Below are positions 714 through 34,605 of a DNA stretch of 37,629 nucleotides, one piece after another (position 1 is the stretch's first letter; the number at the start of each line of letters is the position of its first letter). The stretch is from Rhodovulum marinum. GTDB lineage: Bacteria > Pseudomonadota > Alphaproteobacteria > Rhodobacterales > Rhodobacteraceae. Made by a program: the position numbers and the translations under genes. The stretch is taken from positions 1-37,629 of the forward strand of contig NZ_SLXP01000020.1 in assembly GCF_004343075.1 (NCBI RefSeq), read 5' to 3'. Below the pieces are notes generated by a model. That model worked only from the letters and a program-made list of their open reading frames with translations. It was not told the DNA's origin and made no database searches.

Positions 714-1542
714 GTTTTACGATCTCGCCGGTCAGCACCTGCGCGCATGGGAGGCTCCTCCGCCCAAGCCGGTTTCGACACGAACCTCCGAGGCCACGGC
801 CGATGGATGCATCGACGAAGGAGCCTCGGTTTCAGCGACCGAGACCCAAGCCGGATCACCGGCCAATCCGACAGGCTGACCTCGCCCCTGGCTGCTCCGC
901 TCGCCATGCTCGGTGCCGGTGATCCACCGAGAGCTGCCGTATTCCTGCCGTTCGGACTCGATACGGCTAAGTTCCGCAGGCAGCCCTTATTCGCCGTTCG
1001 CCCTGGAGCAGCCAGCAGAGTCATCTTCGACCGGGAGGGCGGAAAGTATGATTTCGCTGCGATCGCGAGACGGACACACCGGCGATCTGGGAGCCGACAT
1101 TCCGACTGTCTGGAAACCAGCTCATTTCTGCGCCGCCGCAAGTGGGCTTCCAAAGACCTTTTCTCGGCGAATAAGTTCGCGCTGGCCGGATAGCGAAAGC
1201 CTATCAGCCCCAGCCGAGATTGCGGATGTTGCTCTCTTATTTCGGGTTCTGTTCGGCCCCCACAAGGCCGCTCTCGTAGTGGCGGAAGATGGCGCGGAAA
1301 TAGGGAGTTGTCGCCTCGCCATGTAAAGGCGGAAGGCAGGTCCCGCTGGCCAACGCCTTTCGACCTTCAACGATGCGCGATCACGACGGCATCAAAGCCC
1401 CGCATCGCTGCTGAAAGAACCGACAGACCGCCCCCATCGAACGCCACGGAAAAATCGTGATTGGCACGGTGGTCGACAGTTTCGTGAATATCGTTAAGCT
1501 TGTGACGGTTATCTGCGGCTATTCCTAGAAGGGAATTTTGGC
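714..1542. other. Unrecognised stretch between IS debris and the respiratory operon
   Basis: Several short open frames exist on both strands (up to about 179 codons), but none has a recognisable domain, a good ribosome site and coding-like composition together. It is probably decayed coding or IS-derived DNA followed by the promoter region of the gene at 1543. I see no convincing FNR/CRP-type site (TTGAT-N4-ATCAA) or sigma-70 promoter in the last 200 bases. A ribosome site GAAGGGA (1528-1534) precedes the ATG at 1543. Confidence 0.4.
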
Positions 1543-3213
1543 ATGGCACGGTCCGAGGAACGCTCCAGAAGCCTGTTCTTGCGGCTCTTTCTCGGGGTGT
1601 GCATACTCGCCGTCCTGGGCTTCTTTGTCCTCACCTCGCCCTGGACTTGGTCCCTCGTGCATCCTTCACGCGAGGTCGCGTCTATCGAAGGGGCCGACCT
1701 GGAGAACGGCGAGTTCATCTTCCTCGCGGGCGACTGCGCGACCTGCCATGCAACGCCCGGCCAGGAGGACCCGCTGGTGCTCGGCGGCGGTCGCGAGCTC
1801 GACACCGAGTTCGGCCTGTTCCGGATGCCCAACATCTCTCCGCATGACGAGGACGGCATCGGAGACTGGACGCTGGCCGAGTTCGACCGTGCGGTGCGCG
1901 AGGGCGTCGGGCCCGGAGGACTCGACGGGGAGAATTTCTACCCGTCCTTTCCCTACACCTCCTATCAGAGGATGACCGCCGAGGACGTCCGCGACATGTA
2001 TGCGTTCATCCAGTCGCTGGAGCCCGTCGCCGGCCGGATCGACGACCACGACCTGAAATTTCCCTACAACATTCGCAGGGGCGTCGGACTGTGGCGGCTG
2101 GTCTTTCTTGATGGCGAGCGCCTGCCCGAAGGCAATCCCGGGCCGCTTCCCGTGGCCGAGGACGCGAACGACCCGTTCGCGCCGGTGACCATCGACGCAC
2201 CCGACGACGTGATCCTGGCGCGCGGCAAGTACCTGGTGGAAGGGCCGGGCCATTGCGCCGAATGCCACTCGCCCCGGACCATGCTGGGGACCATCCCCGC
2301 CGGGATGCGCCACGGCGGTGGGCCGACGCCCGAGGGACACGGCCATTTCCCCAATATCTCGCCGCATGAAACGGGCATCGGCTTCTGGTCTGCCAACGCC
2401 ATCGCGAATTACCTCAAGACGGGGGTGAGCCCGATCGGAAAGCGGGCCGGCGGCGATATGGAAGAGGTCGTCGCCAACACTTCGCAGCTGAGCGATGCCG
2501 ACCGTCTGGCCATGGCTCGTTATCTCAAGACGGTCGCGCCGGTCGACAATCCGGCGCCAGGCCTGCCGGAGCCGAACCGCAGTTCGCAGGTGGTCATGCT
2601 GGAGCAATCCGGCGAGAGCGCCCGCGAGTTGCCGACATCGCCGGCCGAAGAGGTGGGCGTGGCGAGCTCGGCCTTCGTCGTGCATACCAAGTCGTTCTTT
2701 CTGGACGCCGGTGGGGCCGAGGAGGATGGCAAGCTCCTGAGCGGGACCGAGGTCGCCGTGGTCGAGGAAGGCGGCGATCTGCTGCGCGTGCGGCTGGATG
2801 GCTGGCAGCTTGTCGGGGCCGAGGCGGTGCTTTACGCCAAGCAGGGCCAGCGCATCATGCAGGCCGTCCTCGGCGAGCCGGCGATCGCGGCGCTGGAGAC
2901 GGGCGAGACCGTGACCGACCCCGATACCGGGCAGGACTGGGTATCGGTCAGCCTGGAGGGTTGGGTCGACAAGACCGGCATGCTGGTCGACGGCGACGCA
3001 CTCTGGTCCTTCACCGCCCAGATGTTCAATTCGGCTTGCGCCGCCTGCCACAGTCCGCCGGAGGCGGACCATTTCCTGGCGAACCAGTGGATCGGCACGC
3101 TGGGCTCGATGAAACGTTTCACCTCCCTCGAACCGGACGCGTATCGCCTGCTGCTCGTCTATCTGCAGAACAATGCCAAGGATTCCGGCGCGAAGGAGCG
3201 CGCCGACCTATGA
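1543..3213 (+). CDS. Membrane-anchored three-haem cytochrome c with TorC-type C-terminal module
   Basis: This is the likely electron donor to the oxidoreductase two genes downstream. It has 556 residues and one hydrophobic segment at about 11-31, probably an uncleaved periplasmic anchor. Two cytochrome c domains follow, with CATCH near 67 and CAECH near 240. They resemble the cytochrome subunit of gluconate/alcohol dehydrogenases (GDCATCH; later YPSFPYTSY, where those subunits usually have the haem ligand Met in PAMPY, here Phe). A long linker leads to an SH3-like region (about 375-475). The third haem site, CAACH near 500, sits in a TorC-like context (HFLANQWIGTLGSMKRF, then LQNNAKD). Classical TorC has a NapC/NirT tetrahaem domain in front of this module; here it is replaced. 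The stop codon overlaps the next start (ATGA at 3210). Quinol oxidation is inferred, not shown. Confidence 0.85.
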   Translation: MARSEERSRSLFLRLFLGVCILAVLGFFVLTSPWTWSLVHPSREVASIEGADLENGEFIFLAGDCATCHATPGQEDPLVLGGGRELDTEFGLFRMPNISPHDEDGIGDWTLAEFDRAVREGVGPGGLDGENFYPSFPYTSYQRMTAEDVRDMYAFIQSLEPVAGRIDDHDLKFPYNIRRGVGLWRLVFLDGERLPEGNPGPLPVAEDANDPFAPVTIDAPDDVILARGKYLVEGPGHCAECHSPRTMLGTIPAGMRHGGGPTPEGHGHFPNISPHETGIGFWSANAIANYLKTGVSPIGKRAGGDMEEVVANTSQLSDADRLAMARYLKTVAPVDNPAPGLPEPNRSSQVVMLEQSGESARELPTSPAEEVGVASSAFVVHTKSFFLDAGGAEEDGKLLSGTEVAVVEEGGDLLRVRLDGWQLVGAEAVLYAKQGQRIMQAVLGEPAIAALETGETVTDPDTGQDWVSVSLEGWVDKTGMLVDGDALWSFTAQMFNSACAACHSPPEADHFLANQWIGTLGSMKRFTSLEPDAYRLLLVYLQNNAKDSGAKERADL

Positions 3214-3863
3214 GCGCAAGCGCCGGCCTCTCCCGCGCCCCGGACCCGGCGGAGATCGAGGCCTTCGTCGCGGAGTTCCTGGGCCGCGCCTTCCTTGCGC
3301 CGCCGGATGACGCGGCGGTGGACAGCATGACCGCGCCCGAGGCGACGCGGCTGTTGCGCGAGATCGCGGCCAGCCTCTCGGAGCAGGACGCCGCCGAGAC
3401 CATGTGCGCGGCGCTCACCCGGGGTCCGCCCGGGGCGGTCGCCGCGGACCTCGCGCGGCGGCATGTGGCGCTGTTCTCGGGCGTGAGCGGCCCGCGCACG
3501 ATTCCGATCTATGAAAGCGCCTATACCGGCGGGGCCAGGCATGCGGCCGAGACCTTTGCCGACTTGCAGGCGATCCTCAGGCATCTCGACCTGCGCGTGG
3601 CCGACGACTGCGCCGAGCCGGTCGACCACCTGTCGCTGGAGCTTGCCCTCTACGCCACGGCCCTGCGCTGCGGCGATGGGGCGGCGACGGAGGCCATGCT
3701 GGACCGCCTTGCCGGCTGGGTGCCCGCGTTCTGCGCCAAGGTGGCCGCGGCCGATCCGGGCGGGGTCTACGGCGCGGCGGCGCGCCTGCTCGCCGCGCTG
3801 GTCCGGCACCGCATCCCCGCCCATTACTCCCCCCTCCAGGCAGAAGGAGCGCGCGCGACATGA
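3210..3863 (+). CDS. torD: TorD-family molybdoenzyme chaperone
   Basis: This 217-residue, probably all-helical cytoplasmic protein belongs by size, composition and position to the TorD/DmsD/NarJ family. These chaperones bind the apo-enzyme and its twin-arginine leader until the molybdenum cofactor is inserted. Visible family traits are an N-terminal LGRAFLAPP segment, a central LARRHVALFSGVSGP stretch followed by a PIYESAY-type motif, and a C-terminal helix with YGAAARLLAALV. The start at 3210 is translationally coupled to the upstream cytochrome (ATGA), and its own end overlaps the next gene by 4 bases. The client is therefore almost certainly the TorA-type enzyme at 3860. Family assignment rests on motifs plus context. 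Confidence 0.85.
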   Translation: MSASAGLSRAPDPAEIEAFVAEFLGRAFLAPPDDAAVDSMTAPEATRLLREIAASLSEQDAAETMCAALTRGPPGAVAADLARRHVALFSGVSGPRTIPIYESAYTGGARHAAETFADLQAILRHLDLRVADDCAEPVDHLSLELALYATALRCGDGAATEAMLDRLAGWVPAFCAKVAAADPGGVYGAAARLLAALVRHRIPAHYSPLQAEGARAT

Positions 3864-6334
3864 CGATATATCCAAAAGAGGCCTTTCCGGCCGTATCCCG
3901 CCGCAGCTTCCTTCAGGGCGCCGCGGCGCTGGGTGCGCTCGGCACCGGGGCCGGGCCGCTCTTGTCCCCGGGCGCCGCGGCCCAGACCGCCAGCGCAGAT
4001 ATCCTCTCGGCCTGCCATTGGGGCGTGTTCCGGGGCCGCGTCACCGACGGGCGCGTGACCGAAATGATCCCGTGGGAGGAGGATCCCGCGCCCTCGCCGC
4101 AGCTCGCCGGCGTGCTGGACTCGATCTATTCGCCCTCGCGGATCAAGTACCCGATGGTCCGCCGGGCCTGGCTGGAACAGGGCCCCGGCGCCGACCCCGA
4201 CGGCCGCGGCACGGGCGATTTCGTCCGCGTAAGCTGGGACGAGGCGCTCGACCTCGTGGCCAAAGAGCTTGTCCGCGTGCGCGAGGAACACGGCTCCACC
4301 AGCATCTTCGGCGGCTCATACGGCTGGAAGAGCCCCGGCAAGATGCACAATTGCCAGACGCTGCTGCGCCGGCTGCTGAAGCTGGAGGGCGGCTTCACGA
4401 ACTCGGCGGGCGATTATTCCACGGGCGCCGCGCAGGTCATCCTGACCCATGTCGTGGGCTCGATCGAGGTCTACGAACAGTGCACCACCTGGCCGGTCCT
4501 GGCCGAGCATTGCGAGTTGATGGTGTTCTGGGGCGCCAATCCGCTGCGCACTTCCGAGATCTGCTGGCAGGTTGCCGATCACGGCTCATTCGCCGGGGTC
4601 GACCTGATCCGCGACGCCGGAATCGAGACCATCTGCATCGACCCGATCCGCACCGAGACGGCCCAGCGCCTGGGCTCGGAATGGATCGCGCCGCGGCCGA
4701 TGACGGATGTCCCGCTGATGCTGGGGATCGCGCATACGCTCTATACCGAGGACCTGCACGACCAGGAGTTCCTCGACCGCTACACCAGCGGCTTCGACCG
4801 GTTCCTGCCCTATCTTCTGGGCGAGAGCGACGGCCAGCCCAAGACGCCGGAATGGGCGGCGGAGATCTGCGAGGTTCCGGCCGAACAGATCCGCGACCTC
4901 GCCCGGCGCTTCGCCTCGGCGCGCACCATGCTGGCGCTCGGCTATTCCACCCAGCGCCAGCACCATGGCGAGCAGGTCCACTGGATGCTGGTCACCCTGG
5001 CCTCTATGCTGGGGCACATCGGGTTGCCCGGCGGCGGCTACGGGTTGAGCTATCACTACGCCTCGGGCGGGGCGCCCACACACAATTCGCCGATCCTGAC
5101 GGCGGTGTCGGACACTCCGGGCGGCGTGGGCGGCGTGGGCGGGCCGGCCTGGCTTGCCGGGGGCGGCTCGCTGACGATCCCGGTCTCGCGCCTGGTCGAG
5201 ACGCTGCTGAACCCCGGCGCGACGATGCAGTTCAACGGCCACGAGATCGAATTGCCCGAGATCAAGCTGGCCTACTGGGCCGGCGGCAACCCCTTCGCCC
5301 ATCACCAGGACCGCAACGAGATGCTGCGCGCCTGGCGCAACCTGGAGACCTTCATCGTCAACGACTTTCAGTGGACGGCGACCGCGCGGCATGCCGACAT
5401 CGTGCTGCCGGCCACCACGTCCTACGAGCGCAACGACATCTCGCAGGTGGGCGACTACGCGCTCAGCCACATCGTCCCGATGAAGAAGCTGATCGACCCG
5501 GTCTTCGAGGCGCGGTCGGACTACGAGATCTTCACCGGGATCGCGCAGAAGCTCGGCCACGGCTATGCCTATACAGAGGGCAAGACCGAGATGGACTGGA
5601 TCCGCGGGTTCTACGAGACCGCACGGATCGAGGCCCGCGCGAAGGGCATGGAGATGCCGACCTTCGAGGCGTTCTGGGACAGCAACGAGCCGCTCGCCTT
5701 CCCACTGACCGAGGAGAGCCGCAACTTCGTCCGCTATGCCGATTTCCGCGCCGACCCGCTGTTGAACGCGCTCGGCACGCCGTCGGGGCGGATCGAGATC
5801 TTCTCGCGCAATATCGAGAAGATGAACTACGACGACTGTCCGCCGCACCCCACCTGGATGGAGCCGATAGAGCGGCTCGGGATGGAGGGACAGAAATACC
5901 CGCTTCACGTCGCGTCGAACCATCCCCGCATGCGGCTCCATTCGCAACTTTGCGGCACCTCGCTCCGCGAGGAATACGCGGTGCAGGATCGCGAGCCGTG
6001 CTGGATGAACCCGGCCGATGCCGAGGCGCGCGGGCTCGCGGATGGCGATGTGGTGCGAGTGTTCAACGACCGCGGCCAAATCCTTGCCGGCGTCGTCGTC
6101 ACTGACGAGATCCGCCCCGGCGTGGTGCGCATCGACGAAGGCGGCTGGTTCGATCCGATGAACCCGCGCGAGATCGGCAGCCTGTGCCGCTATGGCGACG
6201 TCAACAACCTGACGACGGGCATCGCGACCTCCAAGCTCGCCCAGGCCAATTGCGGCCAGACCGCCCTCGTCGAAATCGAAAAATTCGAAGGAGAGCTTCC
6301 CGATGTTCTCGTCTTCTCCGACCCCGTGTCCTGA
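3860..6334 (+). CDS. torA: Periplasmic TMAO/DMSO reductase-type molybdenum oxidoreductase
   Basis: This 824-residue enzyme probably reduces trimethylamine N-oxide, dimethyl sulfoxide or a related S/N-oxide as a terminal electron acceptor. A twin-arginine leader (SRRSFLQ at 13-19, followed by an Ala/Gly-rich hydrophobic stretch) sends it folded to the periplasm. There is no N-terminal Cys cluster, so no [4Fe-4S] centre, as in TorA/DorA/BisC. The molybdenum ligand is Ser187 in GDYSTGAAQ, followed by HVVGSIEVYEQ and a FWGANPLRTSEI cofactor-binding segment. A C-terminal dinucleotide-binding domain starts at about 700 (ASNHPRMRLHSQ, then MNPADAEARGLADGDVV). Length is normal and the gene looks intact. 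The substrate cannot be fixed from sequence alone. It follows torD with a 4-base overlap. Confidence 0.9.
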   Translation: MTIYPKEAFPAVSRRSFLQGAAALGALGTGAGPLLSPGAAAQTASADILSACHWGVFRGRVTDGRVTEMIPWEEDPAPSPQLAGVLDSIYSPSRIKYPMVRRAWLEQGPGADPDGRGTGDFVRVSWDEALDLVAKELVRVREEHGSTSIFGGSYGWKSPGKMHNCQTLLRRLLKLEGGFTNSAGDYSTGAAQVILTHVVGSIEVYEQCTTWPVLAEHCELMVFWGANPLRTSEICWQVADHGSFAGVDLIRDAGIETICIDPIRTETAQRLGSEWIAPRPMTDVPLMLGIAHTLYTEDLHDQEFLDRYTSGFDRFLPYLLGESDGQPKTPEWAAEICEVPAEQIRDLARRFASARTMLALGYSTQRQHHGEQVHWMLVTLASMLGHIGLPGGGYGLSYHYASGGAPTHNSPILTAVSDTPGGVGGVGGPAWLAGGGSLTIPVSRLVETLLNPGATMQFNGHEIELPEIKLAYWAGGNPFAHHQDRNEMLRAWRNLETFIVNDFQWTATARHADIVLPATTSYERNDISQVGDYALSHIVPMKKLIDPVFEARSDYEIFTGIAQKLGHGYAYTEGKTEMDWIRGFYETARIEARAKGMEMPTFEAFWDSNEPLAFPLTEESRNFVRYADFRADPLLNALGTPSGRIEIFSRNIEKMNYDDCPPHPTWMEPIERLGMEGQKYPLHVASNHPRMRLHSQLCGTSLREEYAVQDREPCWMNPADAEARGLADGDVVRVFNDRGQILAGVVVTDEIRPGVVRIDEGGWFDPMNPREIGSLCRYGDVNNLTTGIATSKLAQANCGQTALVEIEKFEGELPDVLVFSDPVS

Positions 6335-6659
6335 ACGCCCGTCCCGGCAAAGGGGCTCTGCTCCCCGCGCTGTCTTGGCCCTGGCTGCGGGCTTCCTGGT
6401 GCTTCCGGGGCTCGGGACCGGGGCGCTCGGCTTCGAACAGAACGCGGCACCGGCGCCCCAGGAAGATTACCTGCCGATACAAAGCCTCGGCGAAGAGCCG
6501 CCCGGCCCCGCGGAAGAGCTTCCGCAGTCGCTTCATGCCGCGTGGTGCCTTGGTCGGTACGACACTTACGATGTCGGGACCAACACCTTCCTCACCGACA
6601 ATCAGCTGCGCCGCGAATGTGTCTCGCCGTATGGCGCTGGAACAGACGGAGCGGACTGA
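6303..6659 (+). CDS. Small exported BA14K-like protein, last gene of the tor operon
   Basis: This 118-residue protein has a basic N-terminus and a hydrophobic segment (VLALAAGFLVLPGLGTGALG, about 24-43), consistent with a signal peptide or anchor. A proline/glutamate-rich linker leads to a C-terminal motif, AWCLGRYDTYDVGTNTF...RRECVSPY, which resembles the BA14K family signature of alphaproteobacteria. The two Cys could pair in the periplasm. The start at 6303 lies inside the end of torA (32-base overlap) and is preceded by a strong ribosome site, GGAGA. It is therefore co-translated with torA, and a role in the periplasmic reductase system is inferred. No function is known to me. Confidence 0.7.
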   Translation: MFSSSPTPCPERPSRQRGSAPRAVLALAAGFLVLPGLGTGALGFEQNAAPAPQEDYLPIQSLGEEPPGPAEELPQSLHAAWCLGRYDTYDVGTNTFLTDNQLRRECVSPYGAGTDGAD

Positions 6660-6696
6660 TCAGGCCAGTGCTGAGCGGACAACGGAGATGAAAGAC

Positions 6697-6820
6697 TGCC
6701 CCCGTCTTGCAGTGCCTCTTGGAGTACGCCCCTGCGGGTGGACACGATCAGGCGGCGTTTTTGACCATGGCGCAGGCGTGGCGGTCTTCGAACTGGGCGG
6801 GGCTGAGATACCCCCGCCCA
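6697..6820 (-). mobile_element. IS3-family fragment: transposase C-terminus and terminal repeat
   Basis: Read on the minus strand, 6816-6748 encodes GYLSPAQFEDRHA followed by CAMVKNAA and a stop, the standard end of an IS3-family OrfB integrase. Beyond the stop the sequence ends with GGGGGCAGT-type bases (complement of ACTGCCCCC at 6697), typical of an IS3 terminus. The rest of the element is missing. The element sits directly downstream of the tor operon. Confidence 0.7.
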
Positions 6821-7105
6821 GAAACTGAGAATGGCCGCGTAAATTCTACGACCAAGTCCCCGCAAAAACGGGGGGATTACCCGATGAAACGGGGGCCGCC
6901 GACTGCGACTTCCTCATACGTTTCATACTCCATCAGGTATGCATCCTCCACCATCAGCGTCTTCATTGCGCAATCCGACGCATCCGGTCAGCGATTCAGA
7001 CAACGTCCGGTCACGCGCTAAGGTTATCCGGTCACCGCGCGACGTTGCCGCTGAGCGTGTTTTGGTGATGTCGCCTTGAGCGGGCCTGGTCAAGCGTTTC
7101 GGCCC
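6821..7105. other. Non-coding debris between two IS fragments
   Basis: No gene is supported here. The stretch contains a short hairpin-like sequence (TCCCCG caaaaa CGGGGG near 6856-6873) without a T-run, and sequence that looks like pieces of IS ends. It may include a terminator for the tor operon, but I cannot show one. Confidence 0.35.
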
Positions 7106-7158
7106 TGGCTGTTGATTTCCGCTGAGAACTGACCCGGTTTTTCATCGAGAAGTGACCC
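7106..7158 (+). mobile_element. IS21-like terminal fragment
   Basis: The bases TTTCCGCTGAGAACTGACCC and CATCGAGAAGTGACCCGT form the imperfect direct repeat (GCTGAGAACTGACCC / TCGAGAAGTGACCC) found at the ends of many IS21-type elements upstream of istA. No istA or istB follows. The fragment abuts the stop codon of the channel gene at 7160, so its arrival may have redefined the end of that protein. Confidence 0.5.
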
Positions 7159-7159
7159 G

Positions 7160-8107
7160 TCAGACGGCCCCCGCCGGAGGGTTACCGAATATCCGTGCGA
7201 CCTCCGTTTCATGATCGACGGGAAGCATGGCTTTCCCGCGGGGACGATTCATCTCGATCTGCATGCGTGGGGTCGGGACTTTCGCTTTCCGCATCGCGCG
7301 GTCGATCAGAGACAGTAGCTCGTCCCGGCAATCGACGTCCCGTTCGAAGCGCGACAGCCAGAACCGGACCGCATAGGAGTTGCCGTCGCTTCCCAGCTCC
7401 TGGACGCGGACATCCGGTGCCGGTTCGGTCTGGATCAGGCGCGCCTCGCCCACGGCCTTCAGGATCATTTCCTTGGCGGCGTCCACGGGAACCTCATGCG
7501 CAAGCTTCAGCGACAGCTGCGCGCGATACTGCGGTTTCGGGGCGGAGTAGTTGATGATGCGTCGGCGCGCGATCTGGCTGTTCGGCAGGATCATGTAGGT
7601 CGAGTCCAGCGTCAGCACCCGTGTCGTGCGCCAGCCGATCTCGATGACCTTGCCTCGTGCGACCTGCTCGATATCGACCCAGTCCCCGATCCGGTAGGGT
7701 GCCTCGACGCCCAGTGCGATGCCGGACAGCGTGTCGGCCACGACGTTCCGGATCGCGAAACCCAGCACCGCGAGTATCAAACTCGATCCCGCAAGCGCGC
7801 CAAGAAGACCTTGTTCCAGCAAGAGCGCGGCAGAGGCAACGATTGCGGCGAAGAACAGCAGAACCGCCACGAGATCCCGAAACAGGCGCGGGTACGGGCG
7901 CTTGTCGCGTCTCCGGCGATCTGCGAACAGGCCGAACAGCCGGCTACCGAGCCAGGCCGCAGCAAGGCAACCGACGACGCCGCCAGGCAGGCGGAGAGAC
8001 AGTCCCACCCGCGGCTCGACATCCTGGTCGAAGATTACCAGGCCGGCTGAGACAAGAAGCAGAACCGAAGGCCAGATCAGCCGACGGAGATGAATGAGAA
8101 GTCTCAT
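7160..8107 (-). CDS. MscS-family mechanosensitive channel
   Basis: This 315-residue inner-membrane protein has four hydrophobic segments at about 10-25, 40-58, 78-98 and 103-128. The last is the pore-type helix, with GFAIRNVVADTLSGI. The conserved MscS beta-domain follows (PYRIGDWVDI, then GKVIEIGWRTTRVLTLD and ILPNSQIARRRIINYS), then the alpha/beta C-terminal domain. Channels of this class release solutes on osmotic down-shock. Many relatives with this N-terminus continue into a cyclic-nucleotide-binding domain. Here the protein ends (GNPPAGAV) right at an IS21-like fragment, so C-terminal truncation is possible. It lies one base after the zinc-ribbon gene and is probably co-transcribed with it. 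Confidence 0.85.
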   Translation of the reverse strand: MRLLIHLRRLIWPSVLLLVSAGLVIFDQDVEPRVGLSLRLPGGVVGCLAAAWLGSRLFGLFADRRRRDKRPYPRLFRDLVAVLLFFAAIVASAALLLEQGLLGALAGSSLILAVLGFAIRNVVADTLSGIALGVEAPYRIGDWVDIEQVARGKVIEIGWRTTRVLTLDSTYMILPNSQIARRRIINYSAPKPQYRAQLSLKLAHEVPVDAAKEMILKAVGEARLIQTEPAPDVRVQELGSDGNSYAVRFWLSRFERDVDCRDELLSLIDRAMRKAKVPTPRMQIEMNRPRGKAMLPVDHETEVARIFGNPPAGAV

Positions 8108-8108
8108 G

Positions 8109-8336
8109 TCAGCAGCCCTGTTCCTGATGCCGCGATGGTCGTCGAGACCGGCACTGGAGGCAGGTCACGGCGGCGCCGGCATGTCGCTCGACGGCGGAGC
8201 CACAACGACGACAGGAAATTCGGATAATGGGGGTAGCGCCCCCGATAATGTGCCGACAGCTGGGACAACGATGAGCGGCTGCGCGGGGAAGCGATGTCTT
8301 GCAGGACGGGCAGGCAAGCGGAAGGTGACGATTCAT
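8109..8336 (-). CDS. Small double zinc-ribbon protein
   Basis: This 75-residue protein carries four CxxC knuckles: C9/C12 (CPSC), C24/C27 (CPSC), C42/C45 (CRRC) and C59/C62 (CLQC). The spacing suggests two zinc ribbons or one four-knuckle unit binding two zinc ions. The start at 8336 was chosen because GAGGG lies just upstream and the Cys motifs begin soon after; a longer frame upstream has no ribosome site. It lies immediately before the mscS gene. A nucleic-acid or protein-binding role is typical of such ribbons but is not demonstrated here. I do not recognise a named family. Confidence 0.6.
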   Translation of the reverse strand: MNRHLPLACPSCKTSLPRAAAHRCPSCRHIIGGATPIIRISCRRCGSAVERHAGAAVTCLQCRSRRPSRHQEQGC

Positions 8337-8388
8337 GAGACCCTCTTTCAACGGGAAGTAAAGACGCCGAAGCGGCGATTGCCGATAT

Positions 8389-8439
8389 CCCGGAAGGAGC
8401 GTCGTGGCTTCGTCAGCGCATCGAGCGGCTCCTTCCGGG
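8389..8439. repeat. Perfect 12-bp inverted repeat downstream of the rnk-like gene
   Basis: CCCGGAAGGAGC (8389-8400) and GCTCCTTCCGGG (8428-8439) are exact reverse complements with a 27-base loop. On the minus strand the stem lies after the stop of the gene at 8478 and before the zinc-ribbon gene. No T-run follows, so it is not a classical intrinsic terminator. It may be an RNA stem that stabilises or processes the message between the two genes. Confidence 0.55.
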
Positions 8440-8477
8440 CAGAGCATGGGCTTCGGCAGGGCCCAGGGAATGTCTGT

Positions 8478-8921
8478 TCATTGTGCCTCCAGACCTTCGG
8501 GGGCATCCTGGGACGCGACGTGGAGCACGGTCAGAACCCGCCGCTTTCCATCCCTGGTATCCCAGTGGAGCGATGCGCCCTCTGCCAGTCCGATCAGGGC
8601 AACCCCGATCGGTGTCAGGATCGAGATCCGCCCGCGTGCGATGTCGGCGTCCTCTGGATAGACGGGCGTTACCGTCTTTTCCTGGCCGGTCGACTCATCC
8701 CGATAGGTGACCGCGCGACCGATGGCCACGACGTTCTGCGGGAGTTTCGCCGCCGGAACGATACGGGCCCGGCCGATTTCGCCGAGCAGCCGGTCGGCAA
8801 GGTCCGGGTTGCGCTGGATCGCGCCCTCCGCAAGTGCCTCGAGCCTTTCCAGGCAGTCCGCACCTATGACGATCCTGGGCCGCCGGCCGGTGTCGCGTGA
8901 CGTAGAGAGTTGTTTGTTCAT
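8478..8921 (-). CDS. Rnk-like GreA/GreB C-terminal domain protein (copy 1)
   Basis: This 147-residue protein resembles Rnk, the regulator of nucleoside diphosphate kinase, whose GreA/GreB-like C-terminal domain binds RNA polymerase. Visible features are IGADCLERLEALAEGA, GRAVTYRDE.TGQEKTVTPVYPEDADI and a C-terminal ISILTPIGVALIGLAEGASL, the FKBP-like Gre fold. It lacks the long N-terminal coiled coil of GreA, so it should not act as a cleavage factor in the secondary channel in the usual way. The start at 8921 follows GGAAAGGAAAC; an upstream ATG adds 17 residues with no site. It is preceded by a second, more distant Gre-like gene at 9005. A diverged copy of the pair lies at 19518-20458. Confidence 0.85.
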   Translation of the reverse strand: MNKQLSTSRDTGRRPRIVIGADCLERLEALAEGAIQRNPDLADRLLGEIGRARIVPAAKLPQNVVAIGRAVTYRDESTGQEKTVTPVYPEDADIARGRISILTPIGVALIGLAEGASLHWDTRDGKRRVLTVLHVASQDAPEGLEAQ

Positions 8922-9004
8922 CGTAGTTTCCTTTCCACCAACTGGCGGTGTGAGTGAACTATAGGTGGCCATGGTCCCTGATCCGCCAGGGGTGGATCAG
9001 AGCA

Positions 9005-9472
9005 TCAGGCCGCGGCTTGGTCCGGAGACGGATGCACATCCAACACCACGACGACTTCGATCTGACCGTCATCCCGCAGAAGCGGAACCTTCTGCAGTTT
9101 TCGCATCCCGATCAGGGTCGCCCCAAGCAATGAAGCAACGAGAATATGTCCCGGGACCGGCACGGGGTTCATGGAAAGCACGCCGCTGCGAGCGCCCTCA
9201 CCGCTGATCATGTAGGTGACGTGGCATCCGGCCACGACAAGATCAGGCGAGGCCGGCTCGGGAGTTCCGCGCGAGATCCGCAGCTTGTGGCGCAGCAGCC
9301 CGTTTAGCAGAGCGGGATTGGGCGAATTCCTGGTTCCGCGATAGCGAAGCAGGTGCTCGATGCCGAGCCGGTCTTCGACAGTGAGAAGAAAGCCGCGCCC
9401 GACAGCGGAGCGTTCAAAGAGCGATCGAAAGTCACTGCCGGCAGGCTGGTGGGTGATCCTGGTAATGGTCAT
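9005..9472 (-). CDS. Diverged Rnk/Gre-like protein, partner of copy 1
   Basis: This 155-residue protein has a Gre-like C-terminal half: DLVVAGCHVTYMISGEGARSG, then ILVASLLGATLIGMRKLQ and LLRDDGQIEVVVVLDV. The last segments parallel the ALIGL and RRVLTVL parts of the adjacent Rnk-like protein. The N-terminal half is unrelated to known coiled coils. Its closest relative in the window is the protein at 19518, which shares GATLxGMR and PLLRDDG. The start at 9472 follows GGGAGA. It leads the minus-strand set that continues with the Rnk-like gene. Regulation of transcription or nucleotide metabolism is inferred from the fold only. Confidence 0.65.
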   Translation of the reverse strand: MTITRITHQPAGSDFRSLFERSAVGRGFLLTVEDRLGIEHLLRYRGTRNSPNPALLNGLLRHKLRISRGTPEPASPDLVVAGCHVTYMISGEGARSGVLSMNPVPVPGHILVASLLGATLIGMRKLQKVPLLRDDGQIEVVVVLDVHPSPDQAAA

Positions 9473-9628
9473 GATATGTCTCCCGGAGCGGTAAAGCCCG
9501 CGTTCTCAGATGCAAGGATGTGAGAAAGCCCCGGGTGGTCGAAGACGCGCTTATGCGCAGACCGCCCGGGGACTCGGGCGGTTCAGAAGCAGAAACCGAA
9601 AAAGGTTTTCGTGCGTGACCATGTGGAG

Positions 9629-9656
9629 ACCTTAGTCTTTGGGCGCACCCTGTCAA
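9629..9656 (-). promoter_or_regulatory. Candidate sigma-70-type promoter for the Rnk-like pair
   Basis: On the minus strand TTGACA (9656-9651) is followed after 16 bases by TAAGGT (9634-9629). This would give a leader of about 150 bases before the start at 9472. The -35 hexamer is a perfect match and the -10 is weak. There is no competing promoter that I can see in 9473-9766. Confidence 0.4.
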
Positions 9657-9766
9657 TCTTCGAGACCGGGCGGGTTTTGGAACGGACAAGGATGCACAGA
9701 TCCCGCGAAGGTGAAGAAGGCGAATTGATGACGAGGTCCACGAGGCAGACTGTCGACGACAGGGGG

Positions 9767-9982
9767 TCACAGACGGCGCACCTCGAAGAATGAGCTACGT
9801 CGATCTTCCTGGATTGGCCAGCGGCGTGGCAGCGGGATGATGTTCGCCGATATCGTGCGACCACCATCGTCTTCCCAACGCGCCAGGCATCTGGCGCTCG
9901 GCGTCGCCGCCGAAGGTTCTATGTCCTTCGGCCCGAAAAGGTCCGGGAACAGCTCTTCGAAGTCCGCCTTGCAGATCATCAT
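9767..9982 (-). CDS. Small hypothetical acidic/aromatic protein
   Basis: This 71-residue frame begins MMICKADFEELFPDLFGP and contains CLARWEDDGG and a basic C-terminus (PLPRRWPIQEDRR). It has no signal peptide or membrane segment. The start at 9982 is supported by AAAGGAGTGACGAA just upstream; the longer frame to 10105 has no such site. It belongs to the run of minus-strand small genes before the Rnk-like pair. I do not recognise the family. Confidence 0.45.
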   Translation of the reverse strand: MMICKADFEELFPDLFGPKDIEPSAATPSARCLARWEDDGGRTISANIIPLPRRWPIQEDRRSSFFEVRRL

Positions 9983-10080
9983 TTCGTCACTCCTTTCCAT
10001 CATTTCATGGCGAGCCGCTACTCGGCCATTGCCGCGCACCACTGCCGTCCAGTGCTGTGTATTCTCGAGAATAGGACCGG

Positions 10081-10383
10081 CTATGCCGTTCGGCCGCCGC
10101 GCCACCCCGCATCGACATGCACATCCGATGAAACTGGACGCATGCTCAGTTCGCGATCCGTGAGACCATCGACGACGCGCGGGATATCACTGCGATCAAT
10201 CCCGATGTCGCGCAGCAGGCGATCGTCCATGCCTCGAAGAGTTTCGATCATTTTCCGGCGTTGCCAGCGGCGGAAGGCGGTCCGGAGCCAACGTCGAAAT
10301 GCTCCGGGCTTGCGGTTGAGCTGACTGGCCCTTCGAGGGGGTGGGAAGTGAGGGGTATTGGATTTGAAGACGTGGGGGTGCAT
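10081..10383 (-). CDS. DUF1127 (YjiS-like) small basic protein
   Basis: This 100-residue protein has a strongly basic central helix followed by the DUF1127 signature: RRWQRRKMIETLRGMDDRLL, then DIGIDRSDIPRVV (about residues 39-73). DUF1127 proteins are usually 45-75 residues. In alphaproteobacteria they have been linked to RNA turnover and to phosphate and carbon stress responses. The N-terminal 30 residues and the Asp/Gly-rich tail are extra. The start at 10383 has GGAG at the right distance; an upstream ATG at 10395 does not. Confidence 0.7.
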   Translation of the reverse strand: MHPHVFKSNTPHFPPPRRASQLNRKPGAFRRWLRTAFRRWQRRKMIETLRGMDDRLLRDIGIDRSDIPRVVDGLTDRELSMRPVSSDVHVDAGWRGGRTA

Positions 10384-10618
10384 GTCATGCTCCATGACGA
10401 AGAAACTGAACCGAGACGCACGCACCACGTCAGCTGGGTGACCCGCACAGGCGTGATCTTCCGGCCATATTGGCGCGTTTGCCACTTCGACTGATCTGTA
10501 AGAGATCGAGATGACCCCGAGGCGCGGACCGGCAAGCGGCCTGATCCCGCCCGGGGCTACCGGCGGTTCAGTGTGTTTCCTGCGTTGATCAGGAACCTCG
10601 TATGAAGACTGAACATGG

Positions 10619-10783
10619 TCATGACTGAGATATCGGCAATCCGCGTGTGTTTATCAAGAGCACGGCGTGGCCTGCGACCTTCTGGCGCCGAATGGACCTG
10701 CACCGGTTTCGTTCCGGTCTTTTGGAGCGATAGTCGCCATCAAGGAGATCGGATAGCGCCATTCTCTTTTCGGTCATCGTCAT
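10619..10783 (-). CDS. Small hypothetical basic protein
   Basis: This 54-residue frame begins MTMTEKRMALSDLLDGDY, continues with a basic middle (RSKRPERNRCRSIRRQK) and ends with a short hydrophobic stretch (AGHAVLLINTRG). ACGGAGATGACG before the ATG at 10783 is a reasonable ribosome site. There is no recognised domain, so this is only a candidate gene. Confidence 0.3.
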   Translation of the reverse strand: MTMTEKRMALSDLLDGDYRSKRPERNRCRSIRRQKVAGHAVLLINTRGLPISQS

Positions 10784-11062
10784 CTCCGTTCTCGGTCCCA
10801 GGTGTTGCAACCCGAACCTTCTCCGAAGATCGGCGGTGCGGTACCGACCGCGCACACCACTTCGATCCACCCTTCCCTGAACGCCAACATGTGTCTCCCG
10901 CGCGGTGACCACGGAGAGAACCTCAGAGGCCGGCACGCAGGATAAACGGCAGAGAGATCAGCGCTCGACCAAGGCGATTAGAGAACGCTCAGGGACAGCA
11001 TCATAATGTCCCAGCCGCTTGTGTGAGGATCGCCGGCATTCGCGAGGTCTGACCGGGCCGTG

Positions 11063-11809
11063 TCAGAGAGGCGTTGAGTGTTCTTGGAAACCCTGATCGC
11101 GTGCGGATGCAAGTATATCGATCATGGCCTCTTGCGATGGGGCTGTCGCCACGCGTATTTTACGCCAGCCTTTCCGGTCGAGGCCGCTTGCAACCTTTTC
11201 CGAAAGGACCGCGGCGGTCATGGTCTGCAGGCAAGCAGATACCCTCGCCTCCTCGCAAAGCGCGGTGAAGAAATGCGCGGTGCGATAGGACATGAAGACA
11301 ATGCAGTCGATATCGCCACGGCGGAGCAGTTCCCGTGTCGCATTCGAGAGAGATCTCGCCGGCGTGGCCCTATATGCAACGACGCGCCGCGCGTCATGGC
11401 CATGACGCTCAAGCGCCCGGGCCATGTCCTCGGTGATGTCCCACCCGCTCAGATAGGTGATCCGGCCCTCGGACGGGTTCCGTTTCTTCAGGATGAGGTC
11501 CAACAAGCTTGTCGCATCCCCGGCTGCTTCGTGAACACAGGTGAATCCCACCCGACGCAGAGGCGCAGCTGTTCCGGCACCGACAGCGTAAATCGGGACC
11601 GTCCTGCATACGGAAGGGTCATTCGCGATCCGCAGCGAGGCATAGACGGACGTGACCACGAATGCCTTGGAAGCTTCGAGGGTCTCAGGGCTGAAGTCGA
11701 CATACGACACATCCAGGATCGGCGCAAGCGAGACCTGTAAACCCATGTTTTCAAGCGACAGCTTCATGGCCTCGGCTTGCAGGGCGGGACGCGTAAGGAG
11801 AATATGCAT
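11063..11809 (-). CDS. hemD: Uroporphyrinogen-III synthase (HemD-like)
   Basis: This 248-residue cytosolic protein matches the two-domain HemD fold, which cyclises hydroxymethylbilane and inverts ring D to make uroporphyrinogen III, the precursor of haem and sirohaem. Visible features are an N-terminal LLTRPALQAEAM, then AFVVTSVYASLRIA, YAVGAGTAAPLRRVG, TYLSGWDITEDMARAL and VVAYRATPA in the second domain. Conservation across HemD is low and this is called from overall pattern. It stands alone, away from hemC or cobA, next to nitric-oxide and respiratory genes that need haem. It may be a second copy serving that demand. The start at 11809 has only a weak ribosome site. Confidence 0.75.
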   Translation of the reverse strand: MHILLTRPALQAEAMKLSLENMGLQVSLAPILDVSYVDFSPETLEASKAFVVTSVYASLRIANDPSVCRTVPIYAVGAGTAAPLRRVGFTCVHEAAGDATSLLDLILKKRNPSEGRITYLSGWDITEDMARALERHGHDARRVVAYRATPARSLSNATRELLRRGDIDCIVFMSYRTAHFFTALCEEARVSACLQTMTAAVLSEKVASGLDRKGWRKIRVATAPSQEAMIDILASARDQGFQEHSTPL

Positions 11810-11982
11810 CGAGGCCGGGCCTTTCTGTTTTCTTCGCCGCTCACTTGGAGCCCGCCGGTTCAGGGGCCTCGGTTAGGTCTTCCAGATCATCCGGCCCGTG
11901 CGCCACTTTCGGATCGTTTTTCCCGTCGATTGTCAAGTTTGCAAACCAGGCCATTGTGTTTGCGCCAATGGGCCATAACGCT

Positions 11983-12399
11983 TCAGAAATCCGGCCTTGC
12001 CGGAAGGGCAATGTCGGCGAGCGTCGAGCGGTCGAGATCGGCGAGGAAGGCGGCCTCGGCCGAGCGCAGGCGCGCCTTGAGCCGGCAGCAGCGCTCTATC
12101 GTGCAATCGCCGCCATCGGGCGCGAAGCATTCCACCAGGGCCTGCCCCTCTTCCAGCGCGCGGACGATCCTGCCCAGAGTGATCCCATCGGCAGGATGCG
12201 CGAGGATGGCCCCTCCGCCCCCGCCGCGTCTTGTCTGCACAAGGTCCGCCTGCGCCAGCCGCTGCATGATCTTGGCCAGGTGATTGCGGGACAGACCGAA
12301 TTCCTCGGCGAGTTCCGCGGTCGAGAAGGCACGGTCCGGCGCGCTTGCCATGCGCATCAGCATGCGCAGCCCGTAATCGGTGAAAGACGTGAGACGCAT
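11983..12399 (-). CDS. nsrR: NsrR, nitric-oxide-sensing Rrf2-family repressor
   Basis: This 138-residue protein has the classic NsrR opening MRLTSFTDYGLRMLMRMA and a winged helix with FGLSRNHLAKIMQRLAQ as recognition helix. The iron-sulfur region follows, with cysteines at 91, 99 and 104/105 in LVECFAPDGGDC and ERCCRLK. NsrR holds an Fe-S cluster that reacts with nitric oxide and releases DNA. The spacing of the second Cys differs slightly from the E. coli pattern, and two adjacent Cys occur at the third site. It is divergent from the truncated haemoglobin operon and shares with it the palindrome at 12421-12443, so autoregulation and repression of that operon are expected. Start 12399 follows GGAGGGG. 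Confidence 0.9.
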   Translation of the reverse strand: MRLTSFTDYGLRMLMRMASAPDRAFSTAELAEEFGLSRNHLAKIMQRLAQADLVQTRRGGGGGAILAHPADGITLGRIVRALEEGQALVECFAPDGGDCTIERCCRLKARLRSAEAAFLADLDRSTLADIALPARPDF

Positions 12400-12420
12400 G
12401 TCGGCTGAACACCCCTCCTG

Positions 12421-12443
12421 AATAGGTATTTACAATACCTATT
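12421..12443. promoter_or_regulatory. NsrR operator, perfect palindrome
   Basis: The arms AATAGGTATT and AATACCTATT are exact reverse complements around TAC, giving the 11-1-11 architecture known for NsrR sites. It lies between nsrR and the haemoglobin gene and overlaps the candidate -35 element of the latter. Repressor binding would therefore block the haemoglobin operon and probably nsrR itself. Confidence 0.8.
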
Positions 12444-12457
12444 ACTGTGGGTATGGC
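12429..12457 (+). promoter_or_regulatory. Candidate promoter of the haemoglobin-nnr operon
   Basis: TTTACA (12429-12434) and TATGGC (12452-12457) are separated by 17 bases. The -35 element lies inside the NsrR palindrome. The -10 is a partial match. Confidence 0.45.
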
Positions 12458-12482
12458 TAGAGGCAACAGACGGGAGCGCCCG

Positions 12483-12953
12483 ATGGTCGCCAATGCCTCC
12501 ACCACGGCAATCGCCAGCGCCCGGCCGGAGATGACCGCCGCGCTGATGGACGAGACCGGCCTCGATGACGATGTGCTGCGCGAGCTGGTGCACCGCTTCT
12601 ACGACCGGGTGCGGGCTGATCCGGTACTGGCGCCCATCTTCGCGGCGCGGATTACCGACTGGGCGCCGCACCTGGGTCGGATGGTGGCCTTCTTGTCCTC
12701 GGTCACGCTGATGACGGGTCGGTATCATGGGCGCCCGGTGCCGAAACACGCGCCACTGCGGCTCGGGTCGGCTCATTTCGACCGATGGCTTGCCCTGTTC
12801 CGGACAGCGGCGCGCTATGTCTGCACGCCCGCGGGCGCCGAACACGTGATCGCGCGCGCCGAGCGGATCGCCCGGTCGCTGCACATGGCCTGCACCGATG
12901 CCTGCATGGCCCCCGGGGACATCCCCGTGCTGCGGAGCGCCGCCGCCGAGTGA
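12483..12953 (+). CDS. Group III truncated haemoglobin
   Basis: This 156-residue protein matches group III (class P) truncated haemoglobins. It has LVHRFYDRVRADPVLAPIF in the B/C helix region, WAPHLGRMVAFLSSVTLMTGRYHG at the E helix, and HFDRWLALFRTAA, where the His is the proximal haem ligand. A C-terminal helix contains ARSLHMAC. Members bind haem in the cytosol and have been linked to nitric-oxide or oxygen handling at low oxygen. The start at 12483 follows GGGAG; an upstream ATG at 12447 would add 12 basic residues inside the promoter. It is the first gene behind the NsrR operator, which supports a nitrosative-stress role. Confidence 0.88.
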   Translation: MVANASTTAIASARPEMTAALMDETGLDDDVLRELVHRFYDRVRADPVLAPIFAARITDWAPHLGRMVAFLSSVTLMTGRYHGRPVPKHAPLRLGSAHFDRWLALFRTAARYVCTPAGAEHVIARAERIARSLHMACTDACMAPGDIPVLRSAAAE

Positions 12954-13860: not shown

Positions 13861-14559
13861 ATGAACGACCAGGACAAACCGGCAGCCCGCTTCGCCTCGC
13901 CTCCCTGCATGGCGGGCGAAATCGCACCCGATTATTTCAACCCGCTCGGCACGGACTCCACGCAGGCCAGGGATGTGGCCCGATGGCGCCGGGCGGAGCG
14001 CGCGCGGCTGCGCGGCGCGCGTGGGAAGATCCCGGTGGCGGAGCACCGCAGGACAAGCCAGGCGCTGGCCGGGCATTTGCTCGATCTTCTTTCGAACCGT
14101 TTCGGCGGCGCGCGGGGCCGTGTCCTGTCCGGCTATTGGCCGATCAAGGGCGAGCCCGACCTGCGCGCAGCCCTGGCCGACCTGCACGACGCGGGCGTCA
14201 TGATCGCGCTGCCGATCGTGGAGGAAAAGGCGGCGCCCCTGGTGTTCCGCCGTTGGGCTCCGACCACCCGGATGGTGCTGGGCGACTGGAACATCCCCGT
14301 CCCGCCCGCCAAGGCGGCGCGCGTCACGCCCGCGATCATGCTCGCGCCGCTGATGGGCTGGGACGGCGCAGGCTATCGCCTTGGCTATGGCGGCGGCTAT
14401 TTCGACCGCACGCTGGCGGCGCTGTCCCCGCGCCCCGCGACCATCGGGATCGGGTTCCAGTCCGCGCAGCTCGCCACGATCTACCCCCAACCGCACGACA
14501 TCGCACTCGACTTCATCCTGACCGAGGCGGGTGTCCAGGTCACGCGGGAGGCCCCATGA
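13861..14559 (+). CDS. 5-formyltetrahydrofolate cyclo-ligase family protein
   Basis: This 232-residue protein resembles 5-formyl-THF cyclo-ligase (5,10-methenyl-THF synthetase). That enzyme uses ATP to return 5-formyl-THF to the active folate pool. Features are RRAERARLRGARGKI near 40-55, SGYWPIKGEPDLRAAL, DWNIPVPP and the conserved MGWDGAGYRLGYGGGYFDRTLA. An N-terminal extension of about 40 residues precedes the usual start. It carries GEIAPDYFNPLGTD, a segment seen in related proteobacterial proteins. The ribosome site GAGGATGAG precedes 13861, and the stop overlaps the nnrS start (ATGA). Its location in a nitric-oxide cluster is unusual for a folate enzyme. Confidence 0.82.
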   Translation: MNDQDKPAARFASPPCMAGEIAPDYFNPLGTDSTQARDVARWRRAERARLRGARGKIPVAEHRRTSQALAGHLLDLLSNRFGGARGRVLSGYWPIKGEPDLRAALADLHDAGVMIALPIVEEKAAPLVFRRWAPTTRMVLGDWNIPVPPAKAARVTPAIMLAPLMGWDGAGYRLGYGGGYFDRTLAALSPRPATIGIGFQSAQLATIYPQPHDIALDFILTEAGVQVTREAP

Positions 14560-26197: not shown

Positions 26198-26484
26198 AGG
26201 TAATCCCCGAGATCGTAGCCTTCAGCGGGGGCGTCGCCACCGGTGCTGGCGTCGTTTGTTTGATCCTCCAGCAGGGCCCTGATCGGCACCCGAAGCGCCG
26301 CCGCGATCTTCGCGAGCGTCGTCAGCCTTGCGTCGCGCTTGCCCGTCTCGATCAGCGACAGCGCGGGCGCGCTGATCCCGGTGAGGCGGGCAAGCTGCTC
26401 GAGCGTGAGGTCCTGATCCGCACGCAGCGCCCGGACGCGCCGCCCGATATCGGCGAGAAAGTTAGATTCGATTTCAGCGGTCAT
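26194..26484 (-). CDS. hipB: HipB-type XRE antitoxin and autorepressor
   Basis: This 96-residue helix-turn-helix protein (Cro/CI type) has ALRADQDLTLEQLARLTGISAPALSLIETGKRD in the HTH and a C-terminal tail EGYDLGDYL. HipB neutralises HipA and represses the operon by binding palindromes upstream. It overlaps hipA by 4 bases. The 110 bases upstream contain three matching operators (26496, 26546, 26596). Confidence 0.9.
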   Translation of the reverse strand: MTAEIESNFLADIGRRVRALRADQDLTLEQLARLTGISAPALSLIETGKRDARLTTLAKIAAALRVPIRALLEDQTNDASTGGDAPAEGYDLGDYL

Positions 26485-26495
26485 GGCGACACAGG

Positions 26496-26511
26496 TTACC
26501 TTTTTCGGTAA
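26496..26511. promoter_or_regulatory. hip operator O1
   Basis: TTACCTTTTTCGGTAA has perfect 5-bp arms (TTACC/GGTAA). It starts 12 bases from the hipB start codon and is the best-conserved of the three sites. Confidence 0.7.
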
Positions 26512-26545
26512 ATATGCCGGCGGATGTCCGGGATTTCAAGCTGGC

Positions 26546-26561
26546 TTATCTTTATCGGTAA
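26546..26561. promoter_or_regulatory. hip operator O2
   Basis: TTATCTTTATCGGTAA matches O1 at 14 of 16 positions, with one mismatch between the arms. It begins exactly 50 bases from O1. Confidence 0.65.
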
Positions 26562-26595
26562 AACAGTATAGGTTTCGACCAAAACCAACCCGCCA

Positions 26596-26611
26596 TTACC
26601 GTATTCGATAA
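26596..26611. promoter_or_regulatory. hip operator O3
   Basis: TTACCGTATTCGATAA shares the arms and overall pattern of O1 with one arm mismatch, exactly 50 bases from O2. It lies just beyond the end of the DUF2274 gene. Confidence 0.6.
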
Positions 26612-26626
26612 GGCGGTTGGCGCCAA

Positions 26627-26884: not shown

Positions 26885-26885
26885 G

Positions 26886-31025: not shown

Positions 31026-31028
31026 GGC

Positions 31029-31301: not shown

Positions 31302-31314
31302 GGGCCAGCCTCCC

Positions 31315-34595: not shown

Positions 34596-34605
34596 GGGCG
34601 CGCCC

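Follow-up and report, generated by a model that had tools for sequence, protein, structure and literature searches.

A DorA-type reductase clade paired with a three-haem cytochrome in which a dihaem module takes the place of the NapC half of TorC

Operon and gene products

We analyzed a stretch of 37,629 nucleotides from Rhodovulum marinum (contig NZ_SLXP01000020.1, positions 1 to 37,629, hereafter the window; all coordinates without another label refer to it), which carries near its start an operon for a predicted reductase of dimethyl sulfoxide (DMSO) and trimethylamine N-oxide (TMAO). The first gene of the operon encodes a cytochrome, P0001, in which the C-terminal module of TorC is fused to a dihaem module, and this chimera is the subject of the present study. 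Four genes were found in the region:

1543..3213, plus strand: chimeric three-haem cytochrome P0001, 556 aa (open reading frame, three CXXCH motifs, profile matches)
3210..3863, plus strand: TorD-type chaperone P0002 (PF02613, E 1e-15; PRK04976 TorD, E 4.5e-14, under its cut-off)
3860..6334, plus strand: DorA-type DMSO/TMAO reductase P0003, 824 aa, predicted from profile and motif matches
6303..6659, plus strand: small exported BA14K-like protein P0004, 118 aa (weak BA14K match, under the Pfam cut-off)

P0001 is joined to P0002, and P0002 to P0003, by ATGA overlaps (3210-3213 and 3860-3863), and P0003 and P0004 share 32 bases (6303-6334). An earlier note on this DNA had described an overlapping operon in the order cytochrome, chaperone, enzyme and small exported protein. 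The frames and overlaps are present in the window as described, but the gene order is only partly conserved among the 16 chimera loci compared below: TorD was found in 12 of them, and P0004 in three, namely the window and two near-identical Rhodovulum loci (L002 and L003). P0004 was therefore rejected as a part of the system.

P0003 passes the TIGR00509 S/N-oxide reductase model (1149 against a cut-off of 1017.55) and carries both a serine-containing GDYSTGA motif and an SYGW motif; we take the serine to be the molybdenum ligand, and the Tyr and Trp of SYGW are presumably active-site residues. A twin-arginine signal is visible by eye, with a PF10518 match below the cut-off (18.7 versus 22.7). 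By model, motifs and tree, P0003 is a DorA-type DMSO/TMAO reductase in its predicted activity. The earlier assignment to the TMAO/DMSO reductases thus holds for the family, but TorA in the strict sense was rejected in favour of the DorA type on the strength of the reductase trees and the SYGW motif.

Domain make-up of the cytochrome

The following features were assigned to P0001:

1573..1632, plus strand: predicted N-terminal transmembrane anchor, about residues 11-30 (hydropathy; AlphaFold2 helix 4-31)
1678..2550, plus strand: dihaem module of the CycG / alcohol dehydrogenase cytochrome subunit type, residues 46-336 (PDB and CycG matches)
1735..1749, plus strand: haem 1 motif CATCH, residues 65-69 (sequence)
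1825..1827, plus strand: Met95, candidate sixth ligand of haem 1 (16/16 chimeras, 0/25 CycG-like proteins)
2254..2268, plus strand: haem 2 motif CAECH, residues 238-242 (sequence)
2674..3195, plus strand: TorC C-terminal module, monohaem domain, residues 378-551 (TIGR02162 positions 210-385)
3037..3051, plus strand: haem 3 motif CAACH, residues 499-503 (sequence)

Hydropathy peaks at 2.64 at residues 11-12, and past residue 60 no 19-residue segment exceeds 1.6. An AlphaFold2 model made without an alignment had a mean pLDDT of 35, with helix 4-31 as its main confident part.

In the PDB, the matches to residues 46-336 are the cytochrome subunits of dehydrogenases for fructose, alcohol, glucose and aldehyde, at E values of 1e-40 to 1e-35 (7w2j_C, 1.9e-40; 8gy2_B, 4.6e-40; 8hdd_B, 1.7e-36). 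The likeness to the alcohol, fructose and aldehyde dehydrogenase subunits (8gy2, 7w2j and 8gy3) covers their first two cytochrome c domains. However, significant alignments to subunits of the alcohol dehydrogenase (ADH) and fructose dehydrogenase (FDH) type stop at residues 331-336, short of the third homologous haem domain; the C-terminal part of these subunits is replaced by the TorC module in the chimera, and the partner gene encodes DorA and not a dehydrogenase. Residues 378-551 match positions 210-385 of the 387 in the NCBIfam model TIGR02162 torC (E 2.9e-46). Since the match is confined to these positions, P0001 has no counterpart to the first, NapC-like half of the model, and the score of 158.5 bits lies under the cut-off of 478.2. 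A Pfam scan of P0001 gave two Cytochrom_C stretches and no match to the NapC/NirT family. As a positive control, the pentahaem DorC of another locus (L105) matched TIGR02162 at 2-386 with 658.7 bits; the reductase beside it matches PDB 1eu1 with 1772 bits, by which L105 is a predicted Cereibacter (Rhodobacter) sphaeroides-like dorCDA locus.

Two claims of the earlier note, that the NapC part is absent and that two cytochrome c domains of the ADH/gluconate dehydrogenase type are joined to the C-terminal module of TorC, are borne out by these results. A NapC-like N-terminus was rejected, as the Pfam, TIGR02162 and PDB comparisons all speak against it, and by profile the N-terminal part is of the dehydrogenase-cytochrome type instead. 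P0001 shares with pentahaem TorC/DorC the N-terminal membrane anchor, an operon with TorD and TorA/DorA, and the C-terminal module, in which the CXXCH is accompanied by an NQWIG..M region whose Met is kept in 30/30 aligned rows. In contrast, it lacks the four-haem NapC/NirT half, has three haem motifs instead of five, and carries the CycG/ADH-type dihaem half. Among the literature matches listed (top-ranked only, with subscription journals thinly covered), we found no published description of this fusion.

Use of the TorC C-module without a NapC half has a parallel in TorB (Cj0265) of Campylobacter jejuni, which works with QcrABC. However, TorB is small and soluble, carries a single haem and has neither a dihaem half nor an anchor, and it is served by menaquinol and an atypical Qcr, as described in the excerpted text of PMC6195509. 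A free-standing, TorB-like monohaem module of 229 aa was also seen at L112 (3012-3701, minus strand), where a TorS-like kinase lies on one side of it and a DorA-type gene on the other, and where a full TorC is present in the same stretch; the C-module therefore also occurs alone in this family of Alphaproteobacteria. Separately, more than 10 genomes of the family have matches to the NapC/TorC N-half within longer open frames, about 600-666 aa in length (for example, G250:C19:217174-217866 and G900:C10:18847-19419), which may represent another NapC fusion or merely extended frames.

Recurrence of the fusion

Sixteen chimera loci were compared: the window, L002, L003, L033-L037, L065-L070, L104 and L133, the first three being near-identical (L071 and L073 were dropped as duplicates of L002 and L003). 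Three orders are represented (Rhodobacterales, Hyphomicrobiales and Rhodospirillales), along with a single genome from another class (G1245). All 16 chimeras have three CXXCH motifs and an N-terminal hydrophobic segment, and a reductase gene lies downstream at every locus, directly after the cytochrome and, where detected, TorD; no TorD was detected between the two at four loci (L033, L065, L070 and L104). The chimeric architecture is conserved across the compared loci.

The order draw (390 genomes, the window's own counted) gave at least 9 with a full-length chimera, and the phylum draw (398 genomes) at least 2, namely the window's own and G1245. In a draw of 385 genomes from the class, the C-module was found in at least 6 at E ≤ 1e-8, and the sole chimera was the window's own; five of the other 6 C-module places were opened, and each has five haem motifs. 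The family draw (394 genomes) gave near full-length TIGR02162 matches at at least 10 places in 8 genomes and the C-terminal half only in 5. All of these counts are minima, as only some candidates per genome were scored. Additionally, 8 of 72,556 plasmid records hold the chimera over at least 80% of its length (three each from Cereibacter and Rhodovulum, one each from Neorhizobium and Azospirillum); six of the eight were opened, and five of these are among the 16 loci.

Comparison with CycG-type proteins

The earlier note had described the two domains of this half as gluconate/alcohol dehydrogenase-type cytochrome c domains. They are indeed of the ADH type, but the closest relatives that we found are standalone membrane dihaem CycG proteins of about 300 aa. 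The comparison set comprised 25 standalone proteins, a part of the N-half-only matches from the order and phylum draws: 21 CycG-like proteins from Rhodobacterales are 39-44% identical to the dihaem half, hydrophobic N-terminus included, and four further ones 47-50%. The alignment covers nearly the whole CycG length, with anchor and both haem motifs, whereas the TorC module is lacking in CycG.

The two groups differ consistently around haem 1. Position 95 is Met in 16/16 chimeras and Ala or Val in 25/25 CycG-like proteins; position 131 is Asn in 16/16 chimeras and His in 25/25 CycG-like proteins; and all 16 chimeras have Asp64 and Thr67, where the CycG-like proteins have Gly64 and Ser67. His169 and Met306 are retained in both groups. 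Phe136 is also common to both, whereas in the subunits of FDH, ADH and glucose dehydrogenase this position is taken by the Met of YPAMPY; 8gy3 likewise has Phe here. Taken together, these residues suggest that haem 1 of the chimeras may have an altered sixth ligand. Since the chimeras form one clade, Met95, Asn131, Asp64 and Thr67 reflect shared inheritance and not 16 independent events.

Two neighbourhoods of standalone genes were also recorded. At L138, a CycG-like gene lies behind a cytochrome c'-family gene, an arrangement that fits the R. sphaeroides cycFG operon. At L135 (3979-7949), a CycG-like dihaem gene stands directly behind a gene for a molybdenum aldehyde-oxidase-type large subunit. 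One R. sulfidophilum chimera record itself bears the label 'cycG'.

Reductase phylogeny

In a tree of 29 reductases, 15/15 chimera-linked rows fell on one side of a branch with 100/100 support. When the tree was rooted on three TorA-type enzymes, the G1245 member was added and a few rows that were long or lacked a pair were taken out, all 16 chimera-linked reductases formed a 100/100 clade. This clade sits in a 24-row group with 8 DorA-type enzymes whose donor is a pentahaem DorC; whether it is nested in or sister to these 8 is left undecided by the rooted tree. A tree of the TorC modules also placed the chimeras on one side, with weaker support (82/57). All trees omit L119, where the DorA-like gene was seen as two pieces; the rooted tree also omits L118, L120 and L113, and L107 and L117 gave no reductase row.

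Near-copies aside, chimera-linked reductases are 66-77% identical to P0003, DorC-linked DorA-type enzymes 57-64%, and TorA-type enzymes 45-49%. The SYGW segment is found in all 16 chimera-linked reductases and in the DorA-type rows, and is absent from the four TorA-type rows. P0003 thus belongs to the same family as Rhodobacter DorA (1eu1 and 1dmr): it has the SYGW motif and is about 63% identical to the L105 DorA, which is C. sphaeroides-like. Its 100/100 clade is nevertheless distinct and has the chimera, instead of DorC, as its partner. Because DorA-type and TorA-type relatives both carry pentahaem donors, the simplest history would be that the NapC half was exchanged once for the dihaem module, and that cytochrome and reductase were then inherited and transferred jointly.

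Neighbouring genes and mobility

A kinase and response regulator pair, divergent from the cytochrome, is common to 6 of the 14 chimera loci compared in this respect (L002 and L003 left out; single query, L036). For the two kinases scanned, the best NCBIfam match was TorS, although their scores of 210 and 214 bits do not reach the cut-off of 676.5; kinases 28-30% identical adjoin five pentahaem loci. The TorS-like kinases and their relatives at pentahaem loci point to an oxide-respiration regulon. Upstream of the operon, no FNR-type box was present among the 8 matches in the window at two or fewer mismatches (chance mean 6.0). The only promoter-like site in 1200-7200 is on the opposite strand inside the reductase gene (chance mean 0.8).

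Positions 981-12649 are 99.96% identical to DNA of R. visakhapatnamense JA181, whereas the regions encoding the cytochrome bc1 complex (bc1) of the two genomes are 75-82% identical; therefore, the block was recently transferred horizontally. It is also 98.1% identical to R. euryhalinum over 5.8 kb. On either side of the operon, 1-108 and 6789-6882 resemble plasmid DNA at IS3-family transposase genes, and insertion-sequence remnants may thus flank it. Farther along, 24890-36214 holds a HipA-like gene followed by VirB/Trb-type conjugation genes (TrbI, CagX, VirB8, TrbL, VirB4-like and T2SSE/VirB11-like), which makes it probable that the contig belongs to a conjugative plasmid or other conjugative element. 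An MscS-type channel and an Rnk regulator lie downstream of the reductase (7160-8972), as they do on Cereibacter plasmids (L033/L145), and the window also holds NnrS (13983-15755) and HemD (11063-11809).

Discussion

Periplasmic molybdenum reductases are normally said to require a NapC/NirT-type quinol dehydrogenase or, as in C. jejuni, the Qcr complex. After analyzing the domain and genome data, we propose that P0001 would serve as the dedicated membrane-anchored donor of the periplasmic DorA-type reductase, in place of pentahaem DorC/TorC. On its N-terminal anchor, the CycG/ADH-cytochrome-type dihaem front half would replace the NapC half and feed haem 3. From there, as has been proposed for TorC in E. 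coli, electrons would pass on to the molybdenum cofactor in DorA. That P0001 donates to DorA appears quite likely: the domain make-up, the reductase gene at 16/16 loci and the single reductase clade all favour this role, as does the result that no NapC (PF03264, E ≤ 0.001) was found in 8 of the 11 chimera genomes sampled, the window's own included. In E. coli, the C-terminal domain of TorC has been proposed as the direct donor to TorA (PMC11727998, in the excerpted text).

How electrons enter the dihaem half is the more difficult question. If P0001 does donate to DorA, we lean slightly towards direct oxidation of ubiquinol by the dihaem half without proton pumping, which would be the reverse of quinone reduction by its ADH relatives. 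We used midpoint potentials of +90 mV for ubiquinone and +130 mV for TMAO and a proton-motive force (pmf) of 180 mV (PMC6195509, excerpt). At standard potentials, electron transfer from ubiquinol to TMAO would then yield -7.7 kJ/mol per 2 e- directly and cost about +27 kJ/mol per 2 e- through bc1 against 180 mV. Starting from cytochrome c2, whose potential is +350 mV, it would cost about +42 kJ/mol. The comparison favours direct entry, as does the N-terminal hydrophobic segment of all 16 chimeras together with the role of the ADH relatives as ubiquinone oxidoreductases, stated in the excerpt of PMC9171043. The quinone complement argues in the same direction: MenA was not found above its cut-off in 10 of the 11 chimera genomes, and none of the 11 had a PF02621 match, so that most carriers show no sign of menaquinone synthesis. 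The DMSO reductase of R. sphaeroides draws on the quinol pool (PMC4859585, excerpt). The earlier suggestion of a different electron entry route is therefore plausible, but the donor that it offered as an example, cytochrome c or bc1, becomes less likely if the quinone is ubiquinone.

Several observations weigh against this proposal. NapC-family proteins do occur in three of the 11 chimera genomes (G263, G369 and G1245) and could serve as the donor there; they lie in open frames of 206-307 aa, shorter than TorC. MenA was above its cut-off in G340, with a weak match below the cut-off in G280; the use of ubiquinone is taken from what is established for this bacterial group, and the energetics are based on standard potentials only. 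Cytochrome c1 was found in 10/10 chimera genomes tested (G1245 is outside this set), and the bc1 route is therefore physically available. The dihaem half yielded no identifiable quinone-binding site, and the chimera system is missing both a third haem domain and the dehydrogenase with which the ADH/FDH relatives usually work. The response regulators of the two scanned pairs match PhoB best, not TorR. In E. coli, according to the excerpted text of PMC11727998, TorA is strongly bound only by whole TorC and by its N-terminal NapC half; since the chimera lacks this half, its docking must differ. Finally, the NapC-free Tor system of C. jejuni runs through Qcr (PMC6195509, excerpt). Weighing these points, we hold the combination of donation to DorA and direct ubiquinol oxidation tentatively, somewhat short of an even chance. 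The fuller proposal is a shade more tentative: the chimera may be a second, independently built periplasmic quinol dehydrogenase for oxide respiration, free of NapC/NirT and with haem 1 retuned through Met95 and Asn131, which drives DorA from ubiquinol.

The strongest competitor, which we nevertheless regard as unlikely, is that bc1 reduces the dihaem half, directly or via a periplasmic cytochrome c, so that the Qcr-TorB chain of Campylobacter would be present here in tethered form. Dihaem domains of the ADH type do relay electrons as c-type cytochromes, and, besides the presence of cytochrome c1, a real precedent is available: in C. jejuni, TorB is homologous to the C-terminal domain of TorC, and TMAO reduction needs QcrABC (PMC6195509, excerpt). 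However, the electrons there come from menaquinol, and MenA is missing above its cut-off from most chimera genomes. The same excerpt terms ubiquinol-driven TMAO reduction against the pmf clearly unfavourable, in line with the costs computed above.

It is improbable that the dihaem half is reduced by a periplasmic dehydrogenase or cytochrome of low potential, such as an alcohol or aldehyde dehydrogenase, and thereby couples a periplasmic oxidation to oxide reduction. Homologous dihaem domains do act as acceptors of such dehydrogenases, and the position of the CycG-like gene at L135 behind an aldehyde-oxidase-type gene would fit such a role. Against this, no dehydrogenase gene adjoins the cytochrome in the five annotated chimera regions, and a membrane anchor of its own would be unnecessary.

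More improbable still is operation in the reverse direction, in which the molybdoenzyme would oxidise a sulfide or an amine (for example, dimethyl sulfide (DMS) to DMSO) and the chimera would deliver the electrons to the photosynthetic chain, to bc1 or to quinone. Oxidation of DMS is a known trait of Rhodovulum, but through a different enzyme. In this scheme the chimera would act as cytochrome subunits of the ADH type normally do, which receive their electrons from a dehydrogenase (PMC9171043, excerpt). However, P0003 groups with DorA-type reductases and passes the S/N-oxide reductase model, and the TorS-like kinase context mildly favours oxide reduction over an oxidising role. An assembly artefact or one-off fusion in the window, for which no support was found although the window starts with insertion-sequence-like DNA, has a negligible probability and is refuted by the recurrence of the fusion at 16 loci in genomes and plasmids, 13 of which are not near-copies of the window.

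We therefore return to P0001 as a donor to DorA, with the dihaem half possibly oxidising ubiquinol. A whole DorA-type clade is paired with a donor that keeps the TorC C-module, in which the NapC half has been swapped for an unrelated dihaem module. This swap isolates the C-module as a portable adaptor and suggests that respiratory chains are built from exchangeable parts. Since the cluster is found on plasmids and beside conjugation genes, it has the appearance of a trait gained by transfer, for anaerobic respiration or as an electron sink. It also makes testable, in Rhodovulum, Cereibacter and Azospirillum, the question of whether an alcohol-dehydrogenase-type cytochrome can run in reverse as a ubiquinol dehydrogenase. 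If the chimera does oxidise ubiquinol, this would suggest, by analogy, that the standalone CycG proteins of Rhodobacterales are quinol-linked relays as well.

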